Made by a program: the position numbers and the translations under genes. Below the pieces are notes generated by a model. That model had not been told where the DNA came from. It saw nothing but the letters and a program-made list of their open reading frames with translations, and did no database searches. 64,000 bases of DNA. It comes from Lacipirellula parvula (lineage in GTDB: Bacteria > Planctomycetota > Planctomycetia > Pirellulales > Lacipirellulaceae). The DNA lies in assembly GCF_009177095.1 (NCBI RefSeq), contig NZ_AP021861.1, positions 2,834,501 to 2,898,500 of the forward strand, given 5' to 3'. Every line of letters begins with the position of its first letter. The first letter of the stretch is position 1. This document shows positions 8,732-28,188 of the stretch, in pieces.

Positions 8732-9865
8732 CTAGCGGCGGATGGCACCGGTATCCAGAACCTGACTGGCCCGCGAGCCGTAGTTGCTCCAGACCAGGGC
8801 GTCGACGCTATCCTGAATTTGCTCGACATGCCCGTCGACGAACACCATCTGCACGATGCCGGTATGTTCGCTGCCGAACGCTAGTTGCAGCGATTGGCAC
8901 TTCGTCGACTCTTCGTTGGTGCACCATTGCTGATGCTCTTCGGGAGTTCCGCGTTGGTAGTTGGGCGCGACTCCCGTTGAGCCGAGAAACTCTGACAGGT
9001 CCGATCCTGGGGTGGTGTCAATGTCATCGCTACCCCCCCACCAGTGATCTTTGCGATTCCCGGCCCTCTTCTCGGCGACTCCGCCATTAGCTTCCTGCGT
9101 GACGTAGTCGTGAACCGCTTCGCCCACCATCACCGTGTTGGACGTGCCGTCTTCGATCCACGAGTACTTGACGCCTTTGTCAGCGACGTCGTCCTTGTCG
9201 ATGCCGTAGAGCACGCCGTCGGCGCCGTCATAGAAATCGTTGCCGTCGCCACCCGAGCCCTGGTCGTCTCCTTTTTTAGGATGCCCTTTCAGGAAGTAGA
9301 CGGAGCCGCCGGCATACTGCTGGGTGACGAGTCCCGACGCGACGCCGATGTAAGAGACAGGCGAACGCTTCATGATCCAGTACTGGTCGGCAGTCACGTC
9401 CAGCTGGTGTTCCGGCAAGGCCACTGACGGACAGCGATAAGCCGGCACCACGCTTTCGATAACTGCAACATTGCGTTCGTCCTCAGGCAGCGTCGACGCA
9501 TCGGTATAGGGACCGCCCTGATGGCCCCACTGCATATTGAAGTTTTTATTGTCGCCGATTTTAAGATTCTTGAAGGCATTGCCGCCCTCGAGGAATGGCA
9601 AGGAGTATGCCGACCAGGCGCTGCCTTCGTTCATCAACGCACCAGGCGGTAAATGCTTTTGCGTCCCTTCATAGTTGTTCATCGCCAAGCCAACCTGCTT
9701 GAGGTTGTTCATGCATTGGCTCCGTCGCGCGGCCTCGCGAGCAGCTTGCACTGCCGGCAGTAGTAGGGCGACCAAGACGCCGATGATGGCGATCACCACC
9801 AATAACTCGACCAGGGTGAAACCTGTCGACCGCCGACGGCGAGGCGAGGGGGAGAAGGAAACCAT
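8732..9865 (-). CDS. DUF1559 domain protein with type IV pilin-like N-terminus
   Basis: This 377-residue planctomycete-type pseudopilin has a basic leader ending at [18 protein letters not shown]. The Gly before FTLVE fits a prepilin-peptidase cleavage and N-methylation site. One hydrophobic helix follows, then [20 protein letters not shown], typical of DUF1559. The C-terminus carries [21 protein letters not shown], the family's H-x-G ... DG signature. It is probably exported and assembled by a type II/IV-like system, but individual functions are unknown. The start at MVSFSPS is chosen because GGAG lies about 9 bases upstream; the frame extends to 9931. Confidence 0.92.
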
Positions 9866-9991
9866 GTCAGACGCTCCGTGTCGAAACGAGTGTGTTGAAG
9901 CTGTTGACGGTAAGTGGACGAATCCAAGCAACGTTTCCGGTAGCTAGTTGTAGTAACTTCGCTGCGCGGACCCCAGTATTTCGTGCGCAGA

Positions 9992-12900
9992 TCAGCAGAC
10001 GACTTGCGGCCGACGCCGACGGCAATCAGACGGATTGCGCCGCCGGACCGTCGCGACGAGTCCTGCTAGCGAAATCGCCCCCAGCAAGCAGGCGGCCGGC
10101 TCCGGTACGCTTTGAATGAGAGCCATCGCTGCGGCGCCCATCGCCGGGTTCGCCTGATTCAAGATCGCCCAATCGGAAAGGTTGACCCGACCGTCGTAAT
10201 TCAGGTCGCCGATCATCCGTGTGCTCAGATCGCCGACCACAAGCTCGCGGGGATTGCCCGCTTGGCTCCAGGTTAGCTTCTTTTCGTCAAGCCAGTGATT
10301 AGCAAAGATCGTCACGTCGGCCATCGTGATCGCGTTGTCGCCAGTCAGGTCGGCGACGTGGGTTGGCTTGAAGAACGCGGCGTACTTGTTGTCGCGCTCG
10401 AACTTGAACTCGCCGCGATCTGAAGTCGTGTTGAGGCCCATCACGAACATTTCCAAGTCGTCGACGATGCCGCGATAGTAGCTGTTGTTGGCCAAGCTGA
10501 GGGGGGATTCGCTCGTGTTGGCGCCAACGACCAGCGGGCTGTTGTCCTGCTTCGTCGCATCGACTTCGTCATTCGGGGCGTCTTCGCCGAAATAAAGGCC
10601 GGTGGCAGCCGCCTCGGCCACGCCGTTGACGTACAGGATCGAGCCGCCGCCCGGACCCGTCGGGCGGACCACCATCAGGTGGTACCAGGTGTTCGGCACG
10701 ACGGTGGTTTGGCCTACGTAGTCGAGGTTTGAATACCTCATTGAAAACTTGCCGGCCGCGTTGATCAGGACGCCGTGGTTGTTCGTGTCCATCACGATGT
10801 GCTGCACCGCGGCCGACACCGCCGGCTGCACCCATAGCTGGAAGCCGCGATCGTTGATGTAGGCGTAGTCGAGCGTGCCGTTGGGAAGCGTGCCGTCCAA
10901 CGACGACGGCGACTTTTCTGGGAAGTTGAGCGCTTCGTCCGGCGCCGTACGCAGGAAGTTGCGATCAGTCGCCAACGCATTGAGGCGGATGCCCAGGCCA
11001 GTGCCGCCGTCAGGGCGTCCGCTAATGGTGACGTAAGTCGGCTTCACGGCCGTCTTGCTCAACGCGGTCATATCGATGAGCTGGTTCTGGCCCGAGGCGC
11101 CAGCGCTGTCGTAGGTGACGTTCACCGTACCGCCGTTGGCGGCGCCTGGTTCCACGTCGCCCATCCGATAGTTGCGATCGACGAATGGCGCCGGCACGAC
11201 TTGGGCTTCGGCGGCCGATGGCGTCAGCGCGACCGTCGAGATCGTCGCCGCTGCGGCGACGGCGGCCGGAGCCAACCGCCGGTTCAAGCGGCGTCGAACG
11301 GAGACGACTAAGCCGAGGGCAGCGCCCAGCAACGTGATGCTGGCCGGCTCGGGAACGGCCGCCGTCGCCCCGGTCGCGAGACCGGTCATGCCATACTGCG
11401 TCTTCCAGATCGCGAGATCGTCCGCGTCCACGTCGCTGTCTCCATCTGCGTTGCCTTGGGCCAAAGTCGTCCCGGTGCCGAAGCCGCGCTGCCAGCGGAG
11501 GAAGTCGGCGCCGTCGACGTCGCCGTCCGCGTCGAAGTCGGCGTTCGCCGGCGTCGAGACGTATTGCACGATGCCGTTGATCACGTCGCCGAAAATCGTC
11601 GTGTAGGTAAACTGCAGATCTCGATTCGCCGGGGCCGTGGCGGTGTTAAAGATTTTTCCCAGCGATTCGGTGCGGCTCGACGTGAAGGCGGAGTTGCCGT
11701 CGAGGAAGAACTCGGCAAACTGGTTCGGGTTGGCGGCGCCGAGTTGCCACGTTTCATTAATGGAGTTGCCGACGGTCGAATCGGGGTCGGAACCGTCGAT
11801 CGAGTTCGGCTTCGTGAAGCTCAACCCAACGTTCCCGGTCGGGGCCAGATTGCCGTTGGCGCTGGAGACGTCGAAGCTCGTGATCGACGTACTGATGACG
11901 TCGCCACCGACGATCGACGCCGTCCCCGTCGCGGTGTTTACGCGGAGGATGGAAGGTTCGGCGGGAACGAAGACGCGAACGTTGTCGATCGCCCACCACC
12001 AGTTGTTCCACGACTTGCCGAGACCGAACTCAAGCTGCACGGAAGTCGCCGTGCCGTTGTAGTTCAGGTCGAGCAGGATCGCTTCGTTCATCGTGTTGGG
12101 GTTGCTATCCGGCGCTTCGGGGCCGTGGTAAACGCCCGACGCCGGCGTTGAATCCCACGTCAGCACGGGAGCAAACGCGCCGGCGCCGTACTTTACACGG
12201 ATGGTCGCGGTTTGATTGTGGAGCGTGCCGATCGGGGCGCCGTAGTCGAGCCCCGCGGGGTTTTCCGGCAGCCAACTCGAATCGAAGGCGAGCTTGATCT
12301 TGCCCGCCGGAGTTCCCGCTGGGATCGGAATGACGGGAGTCGTAACGAACGTGTCATAGAAATCCTTCGGCGCTACGTTCTTGTCTTGCCATTCGTCCGA
12401 ATCGGCAATCATCACGGTGCCGCTGCCGCGGGTGAAGTTGGCGCGGCCTTGGTCGCCCGATGCATTGACCCAAAAATCCTTATCAGCGAACGCCCAGCCC
12501 GCCCAATCGGTGACGCCGTCGTTTTCGGGATTGCCAACGCCGGGGACGCCGGTGCGGTCGACGGTCCAACCCGCGGGGCCGCTGCCGTTCCAAACGGCGA
12601 GCTTGCTGGGATCTTCGTCAGGGCTCGGACCGAGAACGACTCCTTCAAAATTTTCTACGAGCAGCGGCAAGTTGGCGGACGCCGGCGTCGCAGCGCTGGC
12701 GATCAGTACGCCGACGGCCACGGCCGCTGCAGAGGAAAGCCGACGACGGCGCCGACGACCGGCGAAGAGCCCCACCGCTCCGCAGATCATGCCAAGCGCC
12801 GCCGTCGACGGCTCAGGAACCGCCGCCAGCGCCGCGGCGAACGCCCCGGCGCCGAGCGCCGCATCGTATTGTCTCTTGAAAATCAAGAAGTCCTTTACCG

Positions 12901-14245
12901 TGTGCTTTTTATCGCCGTCCAAATCGCCGAGATTGTATTGCTGAGCCACGGTCTTTCCTGTGAGCGAGACGTTGTATCCGGCCAGGAACGCTGCATAGTC
13001 GCCGATTTCGATCGATCCGTTGAAATTCAAGTCGAGAGGATTAAACGTTTGGCTGCTATTGCCGACGAATTCGATGATGCCGGTTTGCGGCGTGTTGTTG
13101 CCGGCAATCAAGTATTGGAACGAAATGTCGCTAATGTCTTCGTGGAACTTGCGCCATGACGTCCCCAGGTTGATTTTGCCGAGGGTAGGATTCGACGCGA
13201 ACGTCGGCATGGCGTACTGGTCCGGGATGTAGCCTTCGCTCAGTTCCGAGTGTTCAGGGCTGTCGAAAATCGTCCAATTCGGATTGGCGTCGCCCAGGAA
13301 GGTCGCGGCGACTTCGTCGAGGGTTCCCTTGCTTGACTGGATCGAGTAACCCCGCAAGTTCACCACGCCGTTTGTATTGTTAGCGATGCTCACCTGCCCG
13401 GTTCCCCGGTCGATGGTGAGCCGCAGCGCGCCATCCTGAGCGGGCGAAGCTCCAGTGAACATATTGAGGTTGTCGATCGCCCACCACCAGTTGTTGTCCG
13501 CATCCCACAAACGGAACTCCAGCGACGCCGTCGTGGCGCCGGCTGGATTGAGCATGTTGATGCTCACCGCCTCGTTGACGGCGTCGGGCTTAAAGTTGGG
13601 GTCGGATTCGACCGACGCCCACTTGAACAGCTCAATGACGGTGGCGCCGGGATCGTTGTACTTCACCGTCAGCGACGCCTTTTGGTTGTCTTCAGGTCGC
13701 CACGACGAGTGAAAGAAGAGCTTGGCGGTGTTCGCCGCGACGCCTTGCAGCGGGATGGCGGAAATCTTGAGCGTGGAATCGTAATCCCGATCAGCGGCCG
13801 GCAGGCTATCCAACGTCCCCGTGCCGAAGTCGTCCCATTCGTCTGAGTCGGCGACCGCGATCTTACCGCTGGCGCTGACGAACTTGGCCCGGTCCTGGTC
13901 CCCGGCCGTATTAATCCACCAATCGCGATCGACGAACGTCCAGCCTTCGAATTCGGTGACGCCGACCAGCGGGTTGCCCAGCGAGCCCGCCGGCATGCCG
14001 GTGTCGTCGATCGACCAGGTTCCCTCGGTTCCTGGACCTGTGGGGACCGATTTCGTCCACGCGGCCCGGCTGCGAATTTCCGTGTCGAACGTGACGATCG
14101 GATTGAGCGTCAGGCCTTCGAAATTCTCCGTGAGCAAGTCGACGGCGAAGGAGATGTTGGGGAAGAGCGCCACGCAGGCGATCGGTGCAATGGCTAGATG
14201 GCGAATCGTTCGGCGAACCATGGCATTCATCGGAGATTGGCTCAT
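9992..14245 (-). CDS. Giant exported protein with three modules, each ending in PEP-CTERM
   Basis: This uninterrupted 1417-residue frame looks like three secreted proteins in tandem. Residues 1-34 are a signal peptide. Module 1 (about 35-475) has an FEG...WWWAIDN domain and a dockerin-like pair (DLNFNGSIEIGDYAAF, LGDLDGDKKHTVKDF), then VPEP at 476, a hydrophobic helix and six Arg (497-502). Residues 503-524 read like a signal peptide ending ASA. Module 2 (525-963) repeats the FEG domain and dockerin, with VPEP at 964 and another signal-like segment ending AEA at 1014. Module 3 has a LamG-like region and dockerin, with a final VPEP at 1380. Exosortase would be expected to cleave at PEP, but no exosortase gene is in the window. 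Confidence 0.88.
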   Translation of the reverse strand: MSQSPMNAMVRRTIRHLAIAPIACVALFPNISFAVDLLTENFEGLTLNPIVTFDTEIRSRAAWTKSVPTGPGTEGTWSIDDTGMPAGSLGNPLVGVTEFEGWTFVDRDWWINTAGDQDRAKFVSASGKIAVADSDEWDDFGTGTLDSLPAADRDYDSTLKISAIPLQGVAANTAKLFFHSSWRPEDNQKASLTVKYNDPGATVIELFKWASVESDPNFKPDAVNEAVSINMLNPAGATTASLEFRLWDADNNWWWAIDNLNMFTGASPAQDGALRLTIDRGTGQVSIANNTNGVVNLRGYSIQSSKGTLDEVAATFLGDANPNWTIFDSPEHSELSEGYIPDQYAMPTFASNPTLGKINLGTSWRKFHEDISDISFQYLIAGNNTPQTGIIEFVGNSSQTFNPLDLNFNGSIEIGDYAAFLAGYNVSLTGKTVAQQYNLGDLDGDKKHTVKDFLIFKRQYDAALGAGAFAAALAAVPEPSTAALGMICGAVGLFAGRRRRRRLSSAAAVAVGVLIASAATPASANLPLLVENFEGVVLGPSPDEDPSKLAVWNGSGPAGWTVDRTGVPGVGNPENDGVTDWAGWAFADKDFWVNASGDQGRANFTRGSGTVMIADSDEWQDKNVAPKDFYDTFVTTPVIPIPAGTPAGKIKLAFDSSWLPENPAGLDYGAPIGTLHNQTATIRVKYGAGAFAPVLTWDSTPASGVYHGPEAPDSNPNTMNEAILLDLNYNGTATSVQLEFGLGKSWNNWWWAIDNVRVFVPAEPSILRVNTATGTASIVGGDVISTSITSFDVSSANGNLAPTGNVGLSFTKPNSIDGSDPDSTVGNSINETWQLGAANPNQFAEFFLDGNSAFTSSRTESLGKIFNTATAPANRDLQFTYTTIFGDVINGIVQYVSTPANADFDADGDVDGADFLRWQRGFGTGTTLAQGNADGDSDVDADDLAIWKTQYGMTGLATGATAAVPEPASITLLGAALGLVVSVRRRLNRRLAPAAVAAAATISTVALTPSAAEAQVVPAPFVDRNYRMGDVEPGAANGGTVNVTYDSAGASGQNQLIDMTALSKTAVKPTYVTISGRPDGGTGLGIRLNALATDRNFLRTAPDEALNFPEKSPSSLDGTLPNGTLDYAYINDRGFQLWVQPAVSAAVQHIVMDTNNHGVLINAAGKFSMRYSNLDYVGQTTVVPNTWYHLMVVRPTGPGGGSILYVNGVAEAAATGLYFGEDAPNDEVDATKQDNSPLVVGANTSESPLSLANNSYYRGIVDDLEMFVMGLNTTSDRGEFKFERDNKYAAFFKPTHVADLTGDNAITMADVTIFANHWLDEKKLTWSQAGNPRELVVGDLSTRMIGDLNYDGRVNLSDWAILNQANPAMGAAAMALIQSVPEPAACLLGAISLAGLVATVRRRNPSDCRRRRPQVVC
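11204..11356 (-). other. Internal PEP-CTERM / signal-like junction, modules 2-3
   Basis: It encodes residues 964-1014: VPEP, a hydrophobic helix, RRRLNRR, a second Ala-rich hydrophobic run and an AEA site. There is no stop codon and no ATG with a ribosome binding site inside. Confidence 0.8.
12674..12820 (-). other. Internal PEP-CTERM / signal-like junction, modules 1-2
   Basis: It encodes residues 476-524: VPEP, a hydrophobic helix, six consecutive Arg, a second hydrophobic run and ATPASA. The Arg block serves both as the PEP-CTERM basic tail and as a signal-peptide n-region. It lacks an ATG that could reinitiate translation. Confidence 0.82.
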
Positions 14246-14541: not shown

Positions 14542-16284
14542 TTAGCGGCGGCGCCGAGCGGTCGCGCCAGCGACGGCCAACCCGAGTGCTACCAAGCCTA
14601 ATGAAGCAGGCTCAGGCACGGCGGCCCCGATCTGCACGTTATCGAGGGCCCAGAACCAGTTGTTGCCGCCGGTATACTTGAACCGGACCTTGGCCGTGGT
14701 CGCTCCCGCGGGATTGTCGAGATCGACGAGGACCGTTTCATCCAGGTTCGTCCCATGGAACAACGGATCTCCGGAGATCGAGTTCCAATTCAGAACGATC
14801 ACTTCACCGGCGCCGTAATCGACGGTGATGGCGGCGAGTTGCCCTTCTTCATCCTGCCAGCTCGAATCGAATTGCAGTGCCAACGTTCCCGCAGCCAGGC
14901 TGGAGATGTCGATGATCGGCGATTCGAGCACGGTCGTGATCGGCTTGGTGACGCCGTCGGCGCCGGCCAAGTCGTCAAACTCATCCGAGTCGGCGATAAC
15001 GATGTTGCCGCTGCCCTTGGTGAAGTTGTTGAGGCTTGTCTGCGACGCGAACGCCGAGAAGGCGCGAGTCGTGACGCTCCAACCTTCCCATTCAAACACG
15101 CCGATGTTGTTGTCGCCGATCGCAGCGGCAGGAATGCCGGAGTTGTCGATGTTCCAGCCTGCCGGCACGGTGTGCGAGAAGGCGTTCGGATAGGGCGTCG
15201 ATCCGGCGTCGGTATTAAGGCCAGTGACTTTGGCGAAGGCCGCCACCGTCGAGACCCGCTCGTTGGTGCTCGGGCCGAGCGTCACCGATTCAAAACCTTC
15301 CGTCCAGAAAGCCGGATTGGCGCCTTGCGCCAGCGAGAGATTGTCGACCGCCCACCACCAGTCGTTCGCCGCGTTGATGAAGCCGAAGGCGAATTGAACA
15401 TTCGTCGTGCCGACTGGGATGGCTAGGTTGTACGACAGATTCTCATTGAGCGCATCCGGCTTGTAGTAGTCGGAGGCGGGGCGATCGGGAATTGTGTCGC
15501 CCGCGTTCGAATTGCCGGCGTCCGAATCCCAGAAATCAATCGGTTCCGGCGAGCCGCCGTCGTAAATGGCGTAGACGATCGCCGTTTGATTGTTGTCGGG
15601 ACGGCCCAAGGTGACGTGGTCGTCGTCAAAGCTTTCGGCGCGCCAGCTCGAATCGAACTTGAACGTCAGGTTTTGACCAGCGTAGGCGGAGACGTTCACC
15701 GCAGCCGAGGTCATGCCGGTGTTGTAGTAGTTCCCGCCCAAGCCGTCGCCCAAGTCATCGTATTCGTCGGCGTCAGCAACGGCGACGTTGCCAATGGCGC
15801 TGGTGAACGCCGATCGGCTTTGATCGTCGACGCTGGCCCAAAATGTTTTGTCGGCGAAGCTCCAGCCTTCCCATTCGTCGACGCCGTGCGCGGCCGAACC
15901 TTTGTTGCCGACGCCCTTGTTGCCGACGACGTAGCCGAGATTCGGAACGCGGTAGAGCAGCGCGGGCACGGGATCGGTGCTGATCACGCTCGTGCCGAGA
16001 GCGTTCGTCGGGTCAAACAGGCCGTAGTTGTCGAAATCGTTGTCGACGCTCCAGCCGACGGGACCGGTGTGCGTATAGGCGTTGGGACGCGGAGCGGAAT
16101 TCGGGTCGGTGGCAAGCGCCGTGAGATTGGCGAAGCTCAACGGACCGCGACGCTCGTTGACGCTGTCGCCGAGCGCGATGCTGTCGAAGTTTTCTTGATA
16201 GAGAATCGTTCCAATTTGGGCATAGGTAGGACACGCTGCGCCCATTGAACCAGCAACTGCCAAGACTGCCAGATGTCGTCTCAT
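14542..16284 (-). CDS. PEP-CTERM protein with two FEG/WWWA-DN domains
   Basis: This 580-residue exported protein has a signal peptide at residues 1-22 (MRRHLAVLAV...CPTYAQ). Two copies of one domain follow, at about 25-325 and 328-550. Each opens with a NFDS/GFESV-type strand and runs through GWxxD..., EWEGWSFADKTFW-like, VADxDEYDD-like and FDSSW motifs to NDWWWAVDNLSLA or NNWFWALDNVQIG. It ends in a PEP-CTERM tail, VPEPASLGLVALG plus ARRRR. Planctomycete PEP-CTERM proteins are exported and processed by exosortase; their ligands are unknown. The start at MRRHL is chosen because GGGAG sits about 7 bases upstream; the frame extends to 16584. Confidence 0.88.
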   Translation of the reverse strand: MRRHLAVLAVAGSMGAACPTYAQIGTILYQENFDSIALGDSVNERRGPLSFANLTALATDPNSAPRPNAYTHTGPVGWSVDNDFDNYGLFDPTNALGTSVISTDPVPALLYRVPNLGYVVGNKGVGNKGSAAHGVDEWEGWSFADKTFWASVDDQSRSAFTSAIGNVAVADADEYDDLGDGLGGNYYNTGMTSAAVNVSAYAGQNLTFKFDSSWRAESFDDDHVTLGRPDNNQTAIVYAIYDGGSPEPIDFWDSDAGNSNAGDTIPDRPASDYYKPDALNENLSYNLAIPVGTTNVQFAFGFINAANDWWWAVDNLSLAQGANPAFWTEGFESVTLGPSTNERVSTVAAFAKVTGLNTDAGSTPYPNAFSHTVPAGWNIDNSGIPAAAIGDNNIGVFEWEGWSVTTRAFSAFASQTSLNNFTKGSGNIVIADSDEFDDLAGADGVTKPITTVLESPIIDISSLAAGTLALQFDSSWQDEEGQLAAITVDYGAGEVIVLNWNSISGDPLFHGTNLDETVLVDLDNPAGATTAKVRFKYTGGNNWFWALDNVQIGAAVPEPASLGLVALGLAVAGATARRRR

Positions 16285-16787
16285 TGTCGACTCCCAGGAG
16301 CATCTCAAAGGATTGCTGGGGCCATCGGCTTCGCGGCGCGTTGGATCCGCTCCAACCCAATCAGGCGCCGGCCTCTTCTCATGCAGTTCCTTGCCTGCGG
16401 TTGTTCCGTCCGCAAGCAATTCCGATGGGGGTTCGCACCATGCGAACCAATTCCAGGCTGCTGAACGGATTGTAATGACGATATTTGAAGAAACGAAACA
16501 AACTTTCCCCGCGACCCGCGCAAAGATTAAGCCGAATTGCGTCGATCGCAAAAGCCTCTCGCACATTGCGCACGCCGGCCCCACGAGAAGCGGGCAAAAG
16601 CAGCGCGCATGACCGGAATCGCTATCCGAAATGTGTTGAGATTAACTCTCAACGCAATTCGACGTCCACTCATGAGAGCCACCGGCTCCGCCGGTGAACG
16701 AAGTGCGAGTTCGTGTTGTTTTTGTCGCGTCAACGCAGACCGTTGGCGGCTTCCATTGTTGCGAATCGCGATCGTCTTTCGCTTCGC
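16285..16787. other. 503-base intergenic region with hairpins
   Basis: I see no gene here. Inverted repeats are present at 16391-16419 (TTGCCTGCGG with near-perfect complement), 16430-16448 (GGTTCGCA, 3-base loop, TGCGAACC), 16635-16653 (GTTGAGA/TCTCAAC) and 16680-16696 (CACCGG/CCGGTG). The first two lie 107-165 bases upstream of the PEP-CTERM gene start and may be control sites. The last two lie downstream of phnX and may end its transcript. Confidence 0.55.
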
Positions 16788-20633: not shown

Positions 20634-23600
20634 TTACAGCGTCTTACGATGCCGGCGCCGAAGCAGACAAGCCACGCCGCCAACGGCCATGAGCGCCGCA
20701 CCGCACGGTTCCGGCACAGCCGTCACAGGAGACAGGTTCACATACTGAACGAAGCCCGTCGCCTTCTCACCGGCAAGCGTGGTATAGACGAACTGCAAGT
20801 CGCGGGCGCCTTGCACCGCATCATAACCGGAGCCGATCGCGCGATCACTCGCAAATGTGGAACTACCCAACAGGTATGATTCGATGAGCTTTGAGTCGTT
20901 GGCGAGCAGCGTGAGCCACGTCGAAGCGGGATCGCTCGTCTGACCGAATTGGCGCTGCCAGCGCAAGAAGTCGGCGCCGTCGGTTTTACCATCGCCGTTC
21001 GCATCGCCGCCCGCGGAGGCGCCGAACGCGGTTTTCCAAATCGCAAGGTCCGCGGCGTTGACGCCGCCGGCGCCGTTGAAGTCGGCGCTACTTGGCACGG
21101 GCGTGCCGACGTTCTGGGCGTCGAGATTGCCGTTCTTCCAACCCGTGGGGTTAAGCGAACCGCTCGGACTGGAAATCTCGTACGCGGTGAGCGCGACGCT
21201 GGAATCGCCGAGGATTTTCATCGCGCCCGACTGGGCGTCGACCTGCAGCGTCAGCGGCGTGAAGACTGCGAGATTGTCAACGGCCCACCACCAATTGTTT
21301 CCGGCGTTCGTCATGCCGAACGACAACTGCATGCTCGTTGCACCCGCCGGATTGTTGAGCGGAACGACGACGGTTTCATTCGTGTTGGCCTGCTTGTAAA
21401 ACGCTTGGTTGCCCCCTTCTGATTCCCAACGCAACACCTCCGACGGCGCCCCGCCGTTGTAGGCGACCGTGATCGTCGCGGTCTGCACTCCTTCCGGCAT
21501 CCAACTGCTGTCGAAGCGGAGCCGCGCCGCGCCGGCGCCCGCCCCGGCGAGCGAAATCGAGGGCGTCTTCAAGAACGAGTTATACGTCCCGGCGGCGTGC
21601 GCGATGTCGTCCCACTCGTCAGGGTCGGCGACGGCGATGGCGCCGGTCCCCTTCGTGAACTGCGAACGCCCCTGATCCTCAGCCGCGGCGGCCCACCAAC
21701 TCGGGCTCGCGAACGACCAACCGCGCCATTCCGTCACTCCGCCCGTCGCCGGCATGCCGGTGTCGTCGATCGACCAACCCACAGGAGGCGTCTTGCTCCA
21801 CACATTCGTCCCGGCGAGCGTTTCGTCAACCTTCGGCCCCAGCGCCACGCCATTGAAGTCTTGCTGCAGGTAGACGGTCGCCTGAGCAGGGTTCATCGCG
21901 AGCATGCACATCGCGACGCTGGCGGCCGCTGCGGCCCCGCGCACGCGGCTTCGCAGGGGCCGCTTGCGGCCAACTCCCAGGAAGATTGTCGCACCGATAG
22001 CCAGCAACCCGAGTCCAGTCGGTTCGGGAACTCCCGCCACCATCGCTGCAAAGGCGCCGACGCCATTGGCAGCGTCGAAGTCGAGCCGAAACTGCAGCAC
22101 GTCGTCAATCGTGAAGGCCCCGTCAGCGTTGAGATCGCCCGAGCGATACCGCTGCGCCGTCGACTTGCCGGCGAAGTTCGAGCCGGAGAGACTTGCAAGC
22201 GTCGACCAATCCATCGAATCGAGCCGCCCGTCGAAATTGACGTCGCCACGCACATACGCCGAGCCGCCGTTGCCGACGAATTCGACAATTCCCTCCAGCG
22301 GGTTGTCGCCGACGCCGTCAGCGTACAGGAATTTCACATCGCTGTTTTCTTGGTGGTACTTCGCCCACAACCCGTTGCCGAGCGAGATTGACGCGCCGTT
22401 GACGAGCGCCCCGACGCCAAGCGACGCCTCGCTAAAGTCCGACACCGAGTTCGCGGCGGTCAACACGACCCAATCATCGTCGACGTCGACGGTGCCGTTG
22501 CCCGAATCATCGAGTCGCCCGGCAATTGGCGTCCAGCCTGCTCGGTTAAAGGCGCCGGCGTCGGAGGTGATCTGGTAGCCGATAATCGGCTGCGTGGCTC
22601 CCATGTTGTTCTTAATCGTCATCTGGCCGCTGTTGCGATCGATCACCAACCGCAGCCTCGAATCGACCACCTGCGCGCCGAGGTCGATTCCCGCGCCGGT
22701 ATTCCAAAGTTGGCTCGCCTCGCCCGGCGAGAGTGCACGCCGCCAAATCGCCAACTCGTCGACGGCGCCGGTGAATTCGGGGCCGTAGTTGCCGGTCCCA
22801 TCCTGCCCGACGTTCCAAGGGAGGCCGCTTTGAAAGGTTCCTTGGGACGAAAGGTTGATTGTGCCCGTGTTGACGCCGTTGATGTAAAGCTTCGTCGGCC
22901 CGTCGCGATCGATGGTCATCAGTACGTGGCTCCAGACGCCGACGCCGAGCGGGGCGCTGTTTTGCGCTGTATCGAGGTCGAGCCGATTGCCGCCGCTTGC
23001 GCGGGTATTCAGGTCGAAGACCCCGTTCCCTTTGACGGCCCAGTTAATCCCAACGTTGTCGCCGGTCGCCCAGTTCTTGTTGCTGAAGACGGCCGGATCG
23101 CTCACGAAGTCGTCCTGTCGAACCCACATCGAAACGGAAAAGTCGGTCGTCGTGCCGAAATTGAGTTCCGTCAGCGTCGCCGGGTTGAGCGACATGTAGT
23201 CTTTCACTCCCGGCAGCCACATCGCTTGGCCGATTTTGCCGGCAGTGAACTGGGGGCCGTTGACCGGCGTCCCGTTGCTGAGAAACGGCGATCCGGAACT
23301 ATCGAGAAAGTTGCCGTCGAATTCGTACAGCGCGACCAGATTGTCGGTGAGCGCCGCCGACGCCGCGATCGGCGTAGCCGCCGTTGCTGCGAGCACCGCA
23401 GCGCCCGACAGTCGGCTGGCACGACGGAGTTTGCGGCGCCACGCGGCAAGCGCCGCCACGGCGAAAGCCGCCAGTCCGCAACTGGCGGGCTCCGGAACGC
23501 CGCGAATGCTCGCGAGCGCGGCCGACGCCATCGCCGGGTTGAGACGATTAAGAATGATCCAATCCTTCAGGTCGGTGACGCGGTCGAGGTTCAAGTCGCC

Positions 23601-24656
23601 GCTGCGGTAAGACTCGAGCACCGAGGGATGGTTGCGGGTCAGCCAACCTTGTACGAACGCGGTAACGTCGTCGCTCGCCGCGGGGCCTTTGCCGTTGCCG
23701 GCGATGATGCCGTCTTGGTTGACGTCGCCGACAATCCCGTTCGGCGCCCCGAACGTCAGCCCCACGACCTTTCCGTCGACGGGCGTGCTAAACGGATCGA
23801 CCCCCATGTGCCACAGCGCCGTCGGCACCACGTCCCGCAGCGTCCCTTGCGGCAGTACGGCGCCGTCGGGGATGGCCGGGCCGCTAATCACGAACGGAAC
23901 GTGCCAGTTAATCGTCCCCTGGCTCGCGTAGTGAGACAGTCCCTGCCCGCCGTGGTCCGCCGTCACCATCACCAGCCACGATTCCGTGCCGTTGACGACG
24001 CCGGGCCGGGCGTTGAGCGCGCCCATCACGTTCCCGATAAGACCATCGACAGTTTGCAGTGCTGTGTAGTACGTGCCGGTTCCCCAGCCGATGCTGTGCC
24101 CAGCGTGATCGACCTGGTCGAAGTGAAGAAAAATCGCGTCGGGATCGCCGTTGGTGAGCAGGTTGACCGCGGTGCTGGCGACCGTGGCGTCGTCGACCCC
24201 TTGCACGGAAAGGTCCGCGGTCGACTTGTCGAGAATCACGTCGTTGATCGGCGCCCAATCAACGATCGACGCCGTGTATAGCGACGGATCTTTCTGCTTG
24301 AGATACTCGAAGAAGAAGGGGTATTGATCGAAATGGCTGCCGCCAAAGCTGTTGTCAATGACGCCGTGATGGGCCGCGGAAGCTCCGGTAGTGATCGTCG
24401 ACCAATTAACCCCGCTGGCGCCGTACCCTTCGGGCGGATTCTCGTAGAGGGCGCCCTCGTTCAACCAGTCGTAACGAGCCCCGCCCGCCGCGGCGAGGGC
24501 GTCGAGATTCGGCATGTTCGCGGTTTGCGTGTAGCTGCCGCCCGCCCCGTCGACGCCGATGATGAGAACGCGTTTGCTGACAGCGGCGGAAGAGGCGTCG
24601 ATGCACAGAGCGAGGGAGAGCAGCGCGAGGCAGAGGCTCAATCGATGGCTACGCAT
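20634..24656 (-). CDS. Giant exported phosphodiesterase-LamG-FEG protein with three PEP-CTERM tails
   Basis: This uninterrupted 1340-residue frame has three secreted modules. Residues 1-24 are a signal peptide. Module 1 (25-386) is an alkaline-phosphatase-superfamily phosphodiesterase: VLIIGVDGAGG, STITTGASAAHHG, FLHFDQVDHAGHS and VTADHGG supply nucleophile and metal ligands. A dockerin-like pair and VPEP at 387 follow. A signal-like segment ends near Ala434. Module 2 (435-875) has a LamG fold (LYEFDGNFLDSSG, SVSMWVRQDDF) and a dockerin, with VPEP at 876 and a second signal-like segment ending AQA at 926. Module 3 is an FEG...NNWWWAVDN domain plus dockerin, with VPEP at 1314 and RRRHRKTL at the end. 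The organisation matches the ORF at 9992-14245. Confidence 0.88.
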   Translation of the reverse strand: MRSHRLSLCLALLSLALCIDASSAAVSKRVLIIGVDGAGGSYTQTANMPNLDALAAAGGARYDWLNEGALYENPPEGYGASGVNWSTITTGASAAHHGVIDNSFGGSHFDQYPFFFEYLKQKDPSLYTASIVDWAPINDVILDKSTADLSVQGVDDATVASTAVNLLTNGDPDAIFLHFDQVDHAGHSIGWGTGTYYTALQTVDGLIGNVMGALNARPGVVNGTESWLVMVTADHGGQGLSHYASQGTINWHVPFVISGPAIPDGAVLPQGTLRDVVPTALWHMGVDPFSTPVDGKVVGLTFGAPNGIVGDVNQDGIIAGNGKGPAASDDVTAFVQGWLTRNHPSVLESYRSGDLNLDRVTDLKDWIILNRLNPAMASAALASIRGVPEPASCGLAAFAVAALAAWRRKLRRASRLSGAAVLAATAATPIAASAALTDNLVALYEFDGNFLDSSGSPFLSNGTPVNGPQFTAGKIGQAMWLPGVKDYMSLNPATLTELNFGTTTDFSVSMWVRQDDFVSDPAVFSNKNWATGDNVGINWAVKGNGVFDLNTRASGGNRLDLDTAQNSAPLGVGVWSHVLMTIDRDGPTKLYINGVNTGTINLSSQGTFQSGLPWNVGQDGTGNYGPEFTGAVDELAIWRRALSPGEASQLWNTGAGIDLGAQVVDSRLRLVIDRNSGQMTIKNNMGATQPIIGYQITSDAGAFNRAGWTPIAGRLDDSGNGTVDVDDDWVVLTAANSVSDFSEASLGVGALVNGASISLGNGLWAKYHQENSDVKFLYADGVGDNPLEGIVEFVGNGGSAYVRGDVNFDGRLDSMDWSTLASLSGSNFAGKSTAQRYRSGDLNADGAFTIDDVLQFRLDFDAANGVGAFAAMVAGVPEPTGLGLLAIGATIFLGVGRKRPLRSRVRGAAAAASVAMCMLAMNPAQATVYLQQDFNGVALGPKVDETLAGTNVWSKTPPVGWSIDDTGMPATGGVTEWRGWSFASPSWWAAAAEDQGRSQFTKGTGAIAVADPDEWDDIAHAAGTYNSFLKTPSISLAGAGAGAARLRFDSSWMPEGVQTATITVAYNGGAPSEVLRWESEGGNQAFYKQANTNETVVVPLNNPAGATSMQLSFGMTNAGNNWWWAVDNLAVFTPLTLQVDAQSGAMKILGDSSVALTAYEISSPSGSLNPTGWKNGNLDAQNVGTPVPSSADFNGAGGVNAADLAIWKTAFGASAGGDANGDGKTDGADFLRWQRQFGQTSDPASTWLTLLANDSKLIESYLLGSSTFASDRAIGSGYDAVQGARDLQFVYTTLAGEKATGFVQYVNLSPVTAVPEPCGAALMAVGGVACLLRRRHRKTL
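21879..22031 (-). other. Internal PEP-CTERM / signal-like junction, modules 2-3
   Basis: It encodes residues 876-926: VPEP, a hydrophobic helix, GRKRPLRSRVR, a second hydrophobic run and NPAQA. ATG codons occur only inside the second hydrophobic run, too late to give a basic n-region. Confidence 0.8.
23355..23498 (-). other. Internal PEP-CTERM / signal-like junction, modules 1-2
   Basis: It encodes residues 387-434: VPEP, a hydrophobic helix, WRRKLRRASR, an Ala-rich hydrophobic run and IAASA. There is no stop and no ATG inside. Confidence 0.8.
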
Positions 24657-24724
24657 GCTGGTTTCCAGGGGGAGCTTGTCGTCGATGGGTCTGTTCGAGG
24701 AAGCCGTTGGATCCGCGTGAAGTT

Positions 24725-27700
24725 TTACTTGGCGTTCTTTAAGAATGCGACAAGATCGGCAAGTTCTTGGACGGTGAGCTGTTTGTCGAGGCCGGCAGGC
24801 ATCACGGAGATCGTGTTGGGCTGCACTTCTTCGACGATGTCGCGCGGTAAGCGGACTTCTTCATTCGGGCCGGTGGCGATGACGTACTCGTGCTCAGTTT
24901 CGTTGCGAATAACGCCGGAGACAGCGCGGCCGTCGCTCGTGACGAGCAGCATCGGTTCGTAGCTGCGGACGAAGCTGAGGCTGGGGAAAAGGATCGATTC
25001 GAGCAGGTCGCGCTCGGTGCGGATTTCGCCGATTTTGGAGAGTTCGGGGCCGGTGACGCCGCCTCCGTAGCCCATGCGATGGCAGGCGGAGCAAGAGGCT
25101 TTCGCGCTGTTGAAGACAGCGTGGCCGCGGCGCACGTCGCCCGAAGCCATCGCCGGGAGCAACTCTTCGATGCGGGCCCGCTGCGCGGCGGCGTCGACGT
25201 TCACCAGCGCTTCGATCGCAGCGATGCGGTCGGTGACCGCGGCGTCGTAGTCCTTGAGCGTGATTCGCAACAGATCGAGGCGAAGCGAGGAGAGGGCAGG
25301 GGAGTCTTCGAGCGCGTCGAGCAAGGCGCGGCCGATGGCGGCGTCGTTGGTTTTGGCGAAGGCGCCGACGAGTTTGTTCAGCTCCAGCGGCCCCGCCGCG
25401 GCGATGGCCGCGACGAGCTGGGCGAACTGATCGGGGTTGAGGGGCGCAGCGGCGAGGGCGTCGGCGGCTGCGGTGCGATCGGTGTTGGGCGAATCTTCGT
25501 TGAGGGCGCCGGTGAGGAACGCGAACTGCGGGGCGCTGAGCGACGGGAGCGTCGGCGCGACGAGGGCCGCGGCGGCGAGGCGTTCAGAGGCGGCGGCCCC
25601 TGGATTGTTAAAAAGTTCGACTAGAGCAACGTGCAGCGGCGAATCGTTCGGCGACTGCGGGGCCTGCCGACGCGCGGCGGCGAGGGCTGCGGCGTGGAAC
25701 GCGTGCTCGTCGCTGCTGAGGATGGCCGCAAGGGCGGCGGACCACGCGGCGGCATCGGCGGGCGGGGCTTGTTGCATCGCCATCAAAGAGATGAGGCGTG
25801 CAGGCTGAGGCGCGGTGGCGTCTTGAGCCGTGGCGGCGATGAGCGCTTGGATGTTTGCATCGCCGCTCAGAGCGGCGAGCATTTTTACCAGCAGCGAGAA
25901 ATTATCTCTGTCCGAGGTATTGTCGTTGGCCGCTCGCGGAGCAGAGTCGCTGGGAGTCGTGGCTAGCACGCGGCGGAACCAATCAGCGAGTTGGCTTCCC
26001 CATTCAGGATGGTGAGTGACGATCCAATTCGCGGCGACACTGAGCTGCGGGTTCTGGGCGTCAAGCTGGGCGAGGGCGTAGCCGGCGTCGAGGTTACCGC
26101 CAGGCATTTGGTCGAGCGCGAGTAGCGCAATGGCGATGGTGCTAGGAGCATCGCTGACGATGCCGATACTGGTGGCCTCTGCGTCGCCCAGCTCGATGAG
26201 AGCATAGGTAATTGAATGCTGCAAAACGCGATCATCAGCCTTCGCGGCGGCGTTCAACAAGTGGGGAATGGCCATGGGATCCGCGAGCCTGCCGCTCGCT
26301 TCGGCGGCCGTGCGGCGGACGGCGGGGTCTGAATCGGTGAGGAGTGCAAAGACTTGCGGCGCCGCGGCGCCGTCGCGATGGAGACTGACGCCGTGGAGAG
26401 CGGCCTGTCGAACGCGCGGATGGGGATGGTTCAGTAAAACGCGGACCAGTTGCTGAGCTGCGGGGCGTTCGACTTGGATGAGCGCCCAAGTGCGGGCGAG
26501 GTCGGCGATGAGTTGGTCGCAGTCGTCGGCGATGTTCCCGCCCAGCGGTTCGTCTTCGGGGCGGCTGGCGAGGAAGTTGGCGACGCCGGCCGAATCGCGT
26601 TGCCGGGCGAACGAGCGTGCCGCCCGATGGCGTACCGCTGGGCGGGCGTCGCCGAGAAGTTTCCAAAGCTCGGCAGGCGTTTGCTGGTTCCAGTCGATAG
26701 CGAGGCCGCGCGGGTCTTCAACCGACTGACCATCGTCACGGCGAACGCGGTAGATGCCGCCGAGCACGTCGGGCTTCCACAGCTGCGACGTCGGGCAACA
26801 AAGCTTGTACCAACCGCCGGTGTCGACGACCAGCAGCGTGCCGTCGGCGTCCATCAGCACGTCGGTCGGGTGGAAGTCGACGCTGTCGCCCCAGACGAAG
26901 TCGCTGCTGGCGGCGGCGAACGTGCTGCCCGCCGGGGTGAGCGCCTGTCGCGAGACTTTGCGGGTGTTGAATTCGGCGACGAAGAGGTTGTCGCGGTAGT
27001 CGTCGCCAAAATGGTTCGACTCGTAACTTTCCAAGCCCGCAGGGGCGGCGGAGTTCATCAGCAACAGCGCTGGCATCAGTTCGCCGGTGCGGGGATGGCC
27101 GTCGAGAACGCCGTGGTTCTTGCCGTAGACGCCGCCGTAAATGGCGTGGGCGAGCCCGTCGCGACGGCCGTCGCTTTCGAGAAACGTGGCGGAGAAGATC
27201 CGCTCGCCACTGGGGGTGAACACCACGTCGACGGGGTTGTCCATGCCGCCGGTCATCACCGGTTCGAGGCCGCTGCCATCGGGGCGGCTGCGCCAGATGT
27301 GGGCGGCGCGGCTGCGGAACTCGCGGCCGTTCACCTGGTGAACCTGCTCGGCGAAGGCGCCTTTGCACCAGTAGATCCAGCCGTCGCGGCCGGCGTAGGG
27401 GCCGTGGAGGTCGTTCGCGCAGCCGGTGAGGGTTCCCTTGAACCACTCCTCGCGCTGTTCGGCGACGCCATCGCCATCGGCGTCGGTCAGCTTCCAGATA
27501 CTCGGCGGGGCCGAAACGTAGAGCGAACCATCGAGAAACATCGTGCCTTCGGGAAACATCATCCGGTCGGCGAAAACGACGCGCTTGTCGTAGCGGCCGT
27601 CGCCGTCGGTATCGGTGAGGCGGACGATGCGGTGAGGCTTCTCGGCGAGTTGTTGCTCGACGGGATCGTTTGAGCCGGAGGACTCGGCGACGTAGAGGTG

Positions 27701-27913
27701 GCCGGCGTCGTCGAAGGCGGCGGTGATGGGGCGCTCGACCAGTGGCGGGCCGGCGACGAGCTCAATGGAGAAGCCGTCGGCGACGTGGATGGTCGGTGGA
27801 GCGTCGGCGGAAGGTGACGCTGCGGGGGGCGCCTGCGCGCGGGCGCGAATGGGCGAAACGGCGAGAGACGCAACAAGCGCGAGCAGCCAAAGCCAACGAG
27901 CGGTGAGTCGCAT
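24725..27913 (-). CDS. PVC-type heme-binding CxxCH protein (propeller, HEAT, cytochrome c)
   Basis: This 1062-residue exported protein has a signal peptide at about 1-26. A glucose/sorbosone dehydrogenase-like beta-propeller follows at about 45-430, with Asp-rich DTDGDGRYDKR and DADGDGVAEQR loops and the family segment HGPYAGRDGWIYWCKGAF. HEAT-like repeats fill about 450-890. A C-terminal cytochrome c domain carries CSACHRMG, a methionine-bearing LLVTSDGR...ISVMPAGL region and the ending ELADLVAFLKN. This is the Planctomycetes/Verrucomicrobia membrane-bound-dehydrogenase family; substrates are generally unknown. Start MRLTAR is chosen at the signal peptide; the frame extends to 27988. Confidence 0.92.
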   Translation of the reverse strand: MRLTARWLWLLALVASLAVSPIRARAQAPPAASPSADAPPTIHVADGFSIELVAGPPLVERPITAAFDDAGHLYVAESSGSNDPVEQQLAEKPHRIVRLTDTDGDGRYDKRVVFADRMMFPEGTMFLDGSLYVSAPPSIWKLTDADGDGVAEQREEWFKGTLTGCANDLHGPYAGRDGWIYWCKGAFAEQVHQVNGREFRSRAAHIWRSRPDGSGLEPVMTGGMDNPVDVVFTPSGERIFSATFLESDGRRDGLAHAIYGGVYGKNHGVLDGHPRTGELMPALLLMNSAAPAGLESYESNHFGDDYRDNLFVAEFNTRKVSRQALTPAGSTFAAASSDFVWGDSVDFHPTDVLMDADGTLLVVDTGGWYKLCCPTSQLWKPDVLGGIYRVRRDDGQSVEDPRGLAIDWNQQTPAELWKLLGDARPAVRHRAARSFARQRDSAGVANFLASRPEDEPLGGNIADDCDQLIADLARTWALIQVERPAAQQLVRVLLNHPHPRVRQAALHGVSLHRDGAAAPQVFALLTDSDPAVRRTAAEASGRLADPMAIPHLLNAAAKADDRVLQHSITYALIELGDAEATSIGIVSDAPSTIAIALLALDQMPGGNLDAGYALAQLDAQNPQLSVAANWIVTHHPEWGSQLADWFRRVLATTPSDSAPRAANDNTSDRDNFSLLVKMLAALSGDANIQALIAATAQDATAPQPARLISLMAMQQAPPADAAAWSAALAAILSSDEHAFHAAALAAARRQAPQSPNDSPLHVALVELFNNPGAAASERLAAAALVAPTLPSLSAPQFAFLTGALNEDSPNTDRTAAADALAAAPLNPDQFAQLVAAIAAAGPLELNKLVGAFAKTNDAAIGRALLDALEDSPALSSLRLDLLRITLKDYDAAVTDRIAAIEALVNVDAAAQRARIEELLPAMASGDVRRGHAVFNSAKASCSACHRMGYGGGVTGPELSKIGEIRTERDLLESILFPSLSFVRSYEPMLLVTSDGRAVSGVIRNETEHEYVIATGPNEEVRLPRDIVEEVQPNTISVMPAGLDKQLTVQELADLVAFLKNAK

Positions 27914-28188
27914 GCTGCCAACGCCGAGGAGTGGGGTGACCGCGGCGCGCCCCCGGCCGCGGATCTGGCGCGTAGTATAGCGACCCAACGCTCAAAACCA
28001 AAAAACCGCCACAACGCGGACGCAAAGACGCTGCGCGCGAACGCAAACGACCATTGTTGTCTGAAACCGGAGCATGGCGCGGGCTTCTCGCGGAGCCCAA
28101 GTAGCAGTGCGACGCTCGCACGTAGCGCTTCGTTTGACGCCGCTGCGGCGAAGTTGACATCGAGCAATGCCCCCCGTACCTTCCGGTG

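Follow-up and report, generated by a model that had tools for sequence, protein, structure and literature searches.

Internal PEP-CTERM signals followed by signal peptides suggest membrane-processed surface polyproteins in Lacipirellula parvula and other Pirellulales

Introduction

Why should a sorting signal that belongs at the end of a protein occur twice in the middle of one? According to passages of Haft and others (2006; PMC1569441), the PEP-CTERM signal lies near the C-terminus 'virtually without exception', the very few long-tailed PEP-CTERM proteins are possibly non-functional, and proteolysis by exosortase is a proposal. A gene of the planctomycete Lacipirellula parvula departs from the single signal at the extreme C-terminus, as two of its three PEP-CTERM sites are internal, at residues 476 and 964 of 1417. 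It lies in a 64,000-nucleotide stretch of DNA (hereafter the window; positions 2,834,501 to 2,898,500 of NZ_AP021861.1, assembly GCF_009177095.1), all of it part of a single 6.92-Mb contig. Whether this gene is genuine, how far its architecture extends, and what may become of its product are the questions addressed here.

Architecture of the polyprotein gene

The initial annotation, made from the sequence of the window, had described 9992-14245 as a single 1417-residue frame with VPEP tails at residues 476, 964 and 1380, the first two each leading into a hydrophobic helix, an Arg block, and a second hydrophobic run with an AxA-type end. These coordinates hold, and the strand, which had not been given, is the minus strand; the 1417 codons contain no stop, the three VPEP motifs start at the residues named, and Pfam PF07589 finds three stretches (whole protein 33 bits, against a cut-off of 20.7). 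Reading of the frame confirmed the succession of elements at both internal tails. In junction 1 the helix leads into RRRRRR and a second hydrophobic run that ends in ASA before an Asn, with A524 at -1; junction 2 reads VPEPASITLLGAALGLVVSV-RRRLNRR-LAPAAVAAAATISTVALTPSAAEA before a Gln, with the site AEA and A1014 at -1. An n-region, an h-region and an AxA site, the architecture of an internal signal peptide, are thereby present in both junctions and in those of the orthologues (with one ADG). The N-terminus itself, read by eye, has the basic n-region, hydrophobic core and SFA (residues 32-34) of a signal peptide, and the true start of the protein may be M6, as in the two nearest orthologues. 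The features are collected in Table 1.

Table 1. Features of the polyprotein gene, of related genes in the window, and of tandem pairs elsewhere in the genome (the last as positions of their PEP sites).
Feature	Position	Strand	Basis
Polyprotein ORF, 1417 aa	9992..14245	-	ORF reading; orthologues
N-terminal signal peptide, residues 1-34	14144..14245	-	by eye
Module 1, residues 35-475: jelly-roll-like domain and dockerin-like repeats	12821..14143	-	resembles module 2
Junction 1, residues 476-524: PEP-CTERM helix, Arg block, signal-peptide-like helix, ASA site	12674..12820	-	
Module 2, residues 525-963: jelly-roll domain and dockerin-like repeats	11357..12673	-	model, fold match
Junction 2, residues 964-1014: PEP-CTERM helix, Arg block, signal-peptide-like helix, AEA site	11204..11356	-	
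Module 3, residues 1015-1379: lectin-like fold and dockerin	10109..11203	-	Pfam Dockerin_1, weak model, stand-alone homologue
Terminal PEP-CTERM, residues 1380-1417 and stop	9992..10108	-	ORF reading, Pfam
Upstream gene: two jelly-roll domain copies, no PEP-CTERM between them, one C-terminal PEP-CTERM	14542..16584	-	
Second three-module PEP-CTERM polyprotein: phosphodiesterase, LamG and jelly-roll modules	20634..24656	-	frame reading, Pfam
In-phase tandem PEP-CTERM pairs, own genome (PEP sites)	3838875/3840816; 3914108/3912509; 5065236/5064267		

An AlphaFold model of residues 396-775 (mean pLDDT 80.5) contains a well-predicted beta domain of jelly-roll type, whose nearest folds are CBM61 and the K2 cleaved adhesin domain of Kgp (E about 1e-6); module 1 is predicted, from the model of module 2, to have a fold of the same type. 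The hairpin in the model is of low confidence (pLDDT 42-52 per block). The model of module 3, a weak one (pLDDT 62), resembles lectin-like folds; its matches include neurotoxin binding domains, with which the shared feature is the lectin-like fold. On the strength of these models, the target modules likely serve in carbohydrate binding at the cell surface. The neighbouring gene at 8732-9931 (minus strand) has a prepilin-like N-terminus, of a kind common in planctomycetes.

Orthologues and sequence divergence

Among 59 genomes, that of L. parvula included, 17 matched the protein with E values of at most 1e-60. In seven other genomes (numbered here G001, G002, G003, G008, G015, G023 and G027) the orthologue is open through both junctions, with 45-76% identity to the target over the alignment; the copy in G002 runs off its contig and is without its 5' part. 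Since seven other genomes keep the frame open through both junctions, an assembly or frame artefact is ruled out, and the frame proposed by the initial annotation is genuine. A further three genomes (G006, G019 and G025) hold frames of 1493-1522 aa that match the target piecewise. Polyprotein genes of this kind are present in the named isolates Lacipirellula limnantheis I41 and Aeoliella straminimaris ICT_H6.2, the former being the closest of the named isolates among the matches listed (74% for the best segment); its locus lies in G615, whose junction coordinates equal those of G003. The gene upstream of the target, 14542-16584, has a PEP-CTERM relative in the upstream position at six of the seven orthologue loci, the exception being L163, where none was seen.

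Both signals are retained across this divergence. PEP is kept in all 16 junctions of the target and its seven orthologues, and an AxA site stands directly before the next module in 15, the exception being an ADG in junction 1 of G002; these sites were read by eye, as the automatic alignment of junction 2 does not bring every AxA into the same column. The middle letter of the AxA varies (S, R, N, D, E, T, G or Q). Identity to the target ranges from 42.8 to 82.5% for the modules and from 29.5 to 63.8% for the hairpins (seven orthologues each), from 21.7 to 58.6% for the N-terminal signal peptide (six orthologues), and from 31.8 to 57.7% for the C-terminal tail. On these alignments the hairpins behave like the gene's own terminal signals and diverge faster than the modules, retaining their pattern as individual residues change. 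Of 14 hairpin comparisons, 13 showed less non-synonymous than synonymous change and one (junction 2, L165) showed more, a result that lends weak support because synonymous sites are near saturation.

Internal PEP-CTERM signals in the genome

The initial annotation had suggested searching complete proteomes for internal PEP-CTERM hits with a predicted signal peptide within the next 40 residues. In the L. parvula genome, PEP-CTERM sites were examined with a sequence rule for such a stretch (two basic residues, a hydrophobic core and an AxA-like site). The census scored 150 PEP-CTERM sites out of 326 candidates, missing two of the 11 junctions known from frame reading. Scored sites were terminal in 141 cases (at most 19 residues before the stop) and internal in nine (at least 234 residues after the site), and the rule holds after 9 of the 9 internal sites. 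As a control, the three forward frames past the stop of the 141 terminal sites were examined, of which 5, 11 and 6 pass (22/423); set against 9/9, this makes chance read-through into a hydrophobic stretch unlikely.

Frame reading gives 11 junctions in eight genes, three with three modules and five with two. A profile built from these 11 junctions, which it refinds by construction, recovered no other full-length open junction in the genome among the matches listed. The architecture is accordingly wider than the single gene first described, and a second three-module polyprotein, 20634-24656, lies in the window itself, with junctions at about 23343-23501 and 21867-22034; its phosphodiesterase module is of type I, and its jelly-roll module is recognised by sequence likeness to the target. 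Another of the eight chains joins a trypsin-like protease to a GH16 glucanase. Together, the phosphodiesterase/LamG and protease/GH16 chains indicate that the modules of one chain can be different enzymes. Elsewhere in the window, the interval 24000-28000, where the minus-strand ORF 24725-27988 lies, has a GC skew of up to 0.14-0.16, above that of other 2-kb intervals.

Distribution and chain length

A 25-row profile of the junction found a match in 92 of 196 genomes of the order at E 1e-7, a figure that includes plain C-terminal tails. Junction sequences themselves were read from 20 genomes of the window's family, its own included (a hand count using kin labels), and from eight genomes in seven other families of the order (also counted by hand). 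A junction is also present in G270, from another class, where it is preceded by a module that we read as sulfatase-like. At E 2e-8, a search of 392 genomes of the phylum found full-length open junctions in G000 and G017, both of the window's own family, and in G270. None was found at E 1e-6 in 39 genomes reached through loci whose titles named Verrucomicrobia or Phycisphaerae, or otherwise made no mention of Pirellulales. The thresholds applied beyond the order were strict, and the negative results hold for these thresholds and for the genomes covered.

Some of these chains are far longer than the target. By Pfam, G065 holds a 2531-aa frame with 10 PEP-CTERM stretches, its 5' end cut by the contig, and a 2298-aa frame with eight; a 2427-aa frame of G082 carries seven, together with six FGE-sulfatase domains. 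At four loci of G065 (L248, L249, L252 and L253) the frames span 1355-2531 aa with 5 to 10 PEP-CTERM sites, which mostly alternate with signal-peptide-like stretches. A frame reported as 7330 aa was seen at G046:C1:294509-294643 (part of it in L258), where the PEP-CTERM match covers part of the junction model.

Over all loci, 113 distinct internal PEP-CTERM sites were collected, of which 106 pass a looser form of the signal rule (one basic residue instead of two, and a longer reach). By eye, six of the seven misses still have a second hydrophobic run, whereas the remaining one, L281, is without a signal-like stretch. As the loci were largely chosen for having junctions, these numbers describe the junctions and give no estimate of their frequency.

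Stand-alone modules and the origin of the fused genes

For three of the eight chains, modules are found elsewhere as proteins in their own right. The homologue of module 3 of the target in G016 (41% identity) stands alone, and has both a signal-peptide-like start and a C-terminal PEP-CTERM. The two halves of the protease-GH16 chain are likewise found apart, the protease without GH16 in G008, G010 and G011, and GH16 without the protease in G015, G010 and G025; among six such loci viewed, PEP lies at most 30 residues from the end in five, and about 46 from it in the other (L373). For a 627-aa gene, matches to module 2 without module 1 were found in 16 other genomes and once in its own, in frames of 274-692 aa. 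Twelve of these loci were viewed, 11 of them from other genomes: PEP lies in the last 50 residues in ten, and no PEP motif was found there in two (L380 and L383). Several of the stand-alone module 2 homologues, such as L390, carry an N-terminal signal peptide at the place of the chain's internal signal, and such a coincidence is seen for two of the three chains.

How the fused genes arose can be approached through their unfused neighbours. Where PEP-CTERM sites neighbour one another on the same strand within 6 kb of the L. parvula genome, 33 pairs are separate and five are fused in our census. In three tandem pairs (Table 1) the downstream frame opens in phase directly past the upstream stop, and in other genomes (G065 and G018) some junctions have longer linkers, in which a Met still precedes a typical signal peptide (L249, L253, L255, L250 and L187). 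This series, from separate pairs through in-phase pairs to long linkers, suggests the loss of a stop codon followed by shortening. Judged from these sequences, the polyprotein genes most likely arise by read-through between tandem neighbours after stop-codon loss, the linker then shrinking to a compact, Arg-rich turn.

Processing machinery

The L. parvula genome contains one match to the exosortase family at E 0.1, scoring 190.4 bits with PF09721 and 121.4 with TIGR02602 (cut-off 105.55). It carries Cys, Arg and His motifs, which we take to be those of exosortases, and its gene adjoins a chain-length-determinant-like gene, recognised by eye. It is not XrtH-like (23.7, against 86 for XrtH). Two signal peptidase loci are also present.

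Models of maturation

The reading that we regard as probable is that of a secretory polyprotein with membrane hairpins at which both signal peptidase and exosortase cut. The chain would enter the Sec channel at its N-terminal signal peptide, and each internal PEP-CTERM helix would then act as a stop-transfer sequence, leaving in the cytoplasm an Arg block that would both close one module, as its basic tail, and supply the n-region for the signal peptide that follows. The signal-peptide-like helix would restart transfer, such that every module would come to lie outside. Signal peptidase I would cut past A524 and A1014, as well as past the first signal peptide, and exosortase would cut at each PEP motif. 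Three surface proteins (two jelly-roll and one lectin-like, all with dockerin-like repeats) would thus be released or attached in equal amounts, and small two-helix peptides would remain in the membrane. We infer the first cut from the conserved signal-peptide architecture, and the second from the conserved PEP motifs.

Three secreted modules, joined by hairpins with a dual-role Arg block, had been proposed in the initial annotation, and the proposal fits the sequence tests made, processing itself being the conjectural part. It is supported by the retention of the signals while the letters of the hairpins diverge, by the occurrence of modules of three of the eight chains on their own, and by the encoding of both enzyme classes together with the recurrence of the architecture, in eight genes here and in other families too.

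Two alternatives differ from this in the number of cuts, and both appear unlikely, to a similar degree. In the first the chain would stay whole, the junctions serving as permanent two-helix anchors and the modules being tethered as loops of one surface protein. Both hydrophobic runs could cross the membrane, cleavage is our inference, and cut and uncut hairpins look alike from sequence alone. An anchor, though, would need neither PEP nor AxA on the outer edges of helices 1 and 2, whereas PEP is kept in 16/16 junctions and AxA in 15/16 while the rest diverges; the single-protein forms of modules from three chains, and frames with up to ten PEP-CTERM sites, also argue against a permanent tether.

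In the second alternative one cut alone would be made, with signal peptidase splitting the modules and the upstream ones staying anchored by their PEP-CTERM helices, or the reverse. Exosortase cleavage is less firmly established than cleavage by signal peptidase, which gives this reading some weight. According to passages of a 2025 study (PMC12188702), PEP-CTERM domain peptides were never detected in either strain, and exosortase cleavage was not seen directly, a point that also counts against the two-cut reading. Against a single cut, one exosortase was found in a genome with 141 or more terminal PEP-CTERM sites, and the internal PEP motifs are conserved just as the terminal one is.

That the modules are translated separately, the open frame between them being incidental, is highly improbable, as the stretch from the PEP helix to the second hydrophobic run contains no ATG in either target junction, and their sole Met, M486, sits within helix 1, with Leu in its place in the nearest orthologue. 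Over the wider collection, an in-frame ATG occurs in the n-region of 21 of 113 junctions, including junction 1 of the G001 orthologue, and is absent from 92 (ATG being the start codon scored systematically). In two junctions of G018 (L187 and L204) a Shine-Dalgarno-like stretch accompanies the ATG, so that in other genomes some modules may have translation starts of their own as well.

Relationship to known systems

The secretory polyprotein cut at hairpins would draw on familiar parts. With PEP-CTERM/exosortase (EpsH) sorting the target shares the PEP motif, the helix, the basic cluster, the N-terminal signal peptide and an encoded exosortase; it differs in that its internal signals are conserved, and that each is followed by a new signal-peptide-like stretch. 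The nearest named idea is NCBIfam NF033207 (midcut-by-XrtH protein), which, by its name, we take to describe a protein cut mid-chain by an exosortase, and it is in this cut that the likeness lies. The fit fails by score: the match over residues 471-522 is weak (E 0.011; 15.8 bits against a cut-off of 45), and membership was rejected on this and on the exosortase score given above.

Polyproteins cut by signal peptidase are known from other settings. The fbcH product of Bradyrhizobium, precursor of cytochromes b and c1, is a bacterial example, in which signal peptidase cuts the polyprotein at an internal signal peptide; unlike the target, it yields two subunits of one complex, and is not known to involve a sorting tail or an exosortase. 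In the structural polyproteins of alphaviruses and flaviviruses, stop-transfer and signal helices alternate and signal peptidase cuts, but these are viral and eukaryotic, and the second cut in the target would be made by exosortase. The gingipain/haemagglutinin polyproteins of Porphyromonas consist of jelly-roll adhesin modules, with a precursor that is cut by gingipains and is not known to have a membrane hairpin between modules; the module 2 model matches a domain of this group, that of Kgp K2, whereas the target has putative membrane hairpins.

Among the matches listed in a search of the open literature, covering titles and the starts of abstracts, nothing was found on PEP-CTERM signals that lie inside a protein and precede a signal peptide. 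It is this arrangement, with each internal PEP-CTERM signal leading into a signal-peptide-like stretch, that seems to be new here; the PEP-CTERM system itself is known.

Conclusions

The gene at 9992-14245 and its relatives suggest that in some bacteria surface proteins are produced as polyproteins and separated by cutting at the membrane. This goes against the possible non-functionality suggested, in passages of the original description (PMC1569441), for PEP-CTERM signals distant from the C-terminus. Where annotations and family models assume a single tail at the C-terminus, such genes will be described wrongly. The architecture also offers a simple assay of whether exosortases really cut at PEP, namely the size of the modules with and without exosortase. 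If the proposed processing is true, these chains would give bacteria an equivalent of the polyproteins that enveloped viruses weave through membranes, with exosortase and signal peptidase as its building blocks. In a broader reading, towards which the balance tips slightly, the Pirellulales would use this as a general strategy, producing sets of surface proteins (up to about ten) as one chain, with exosortase acting as an internal endopeptidase or transpeptidase on two-helix hairpins and not solely on tails at the C-terminus; and since processing would make the two states equivalent, tandem families would pass freely between separate genes and polyproteins.
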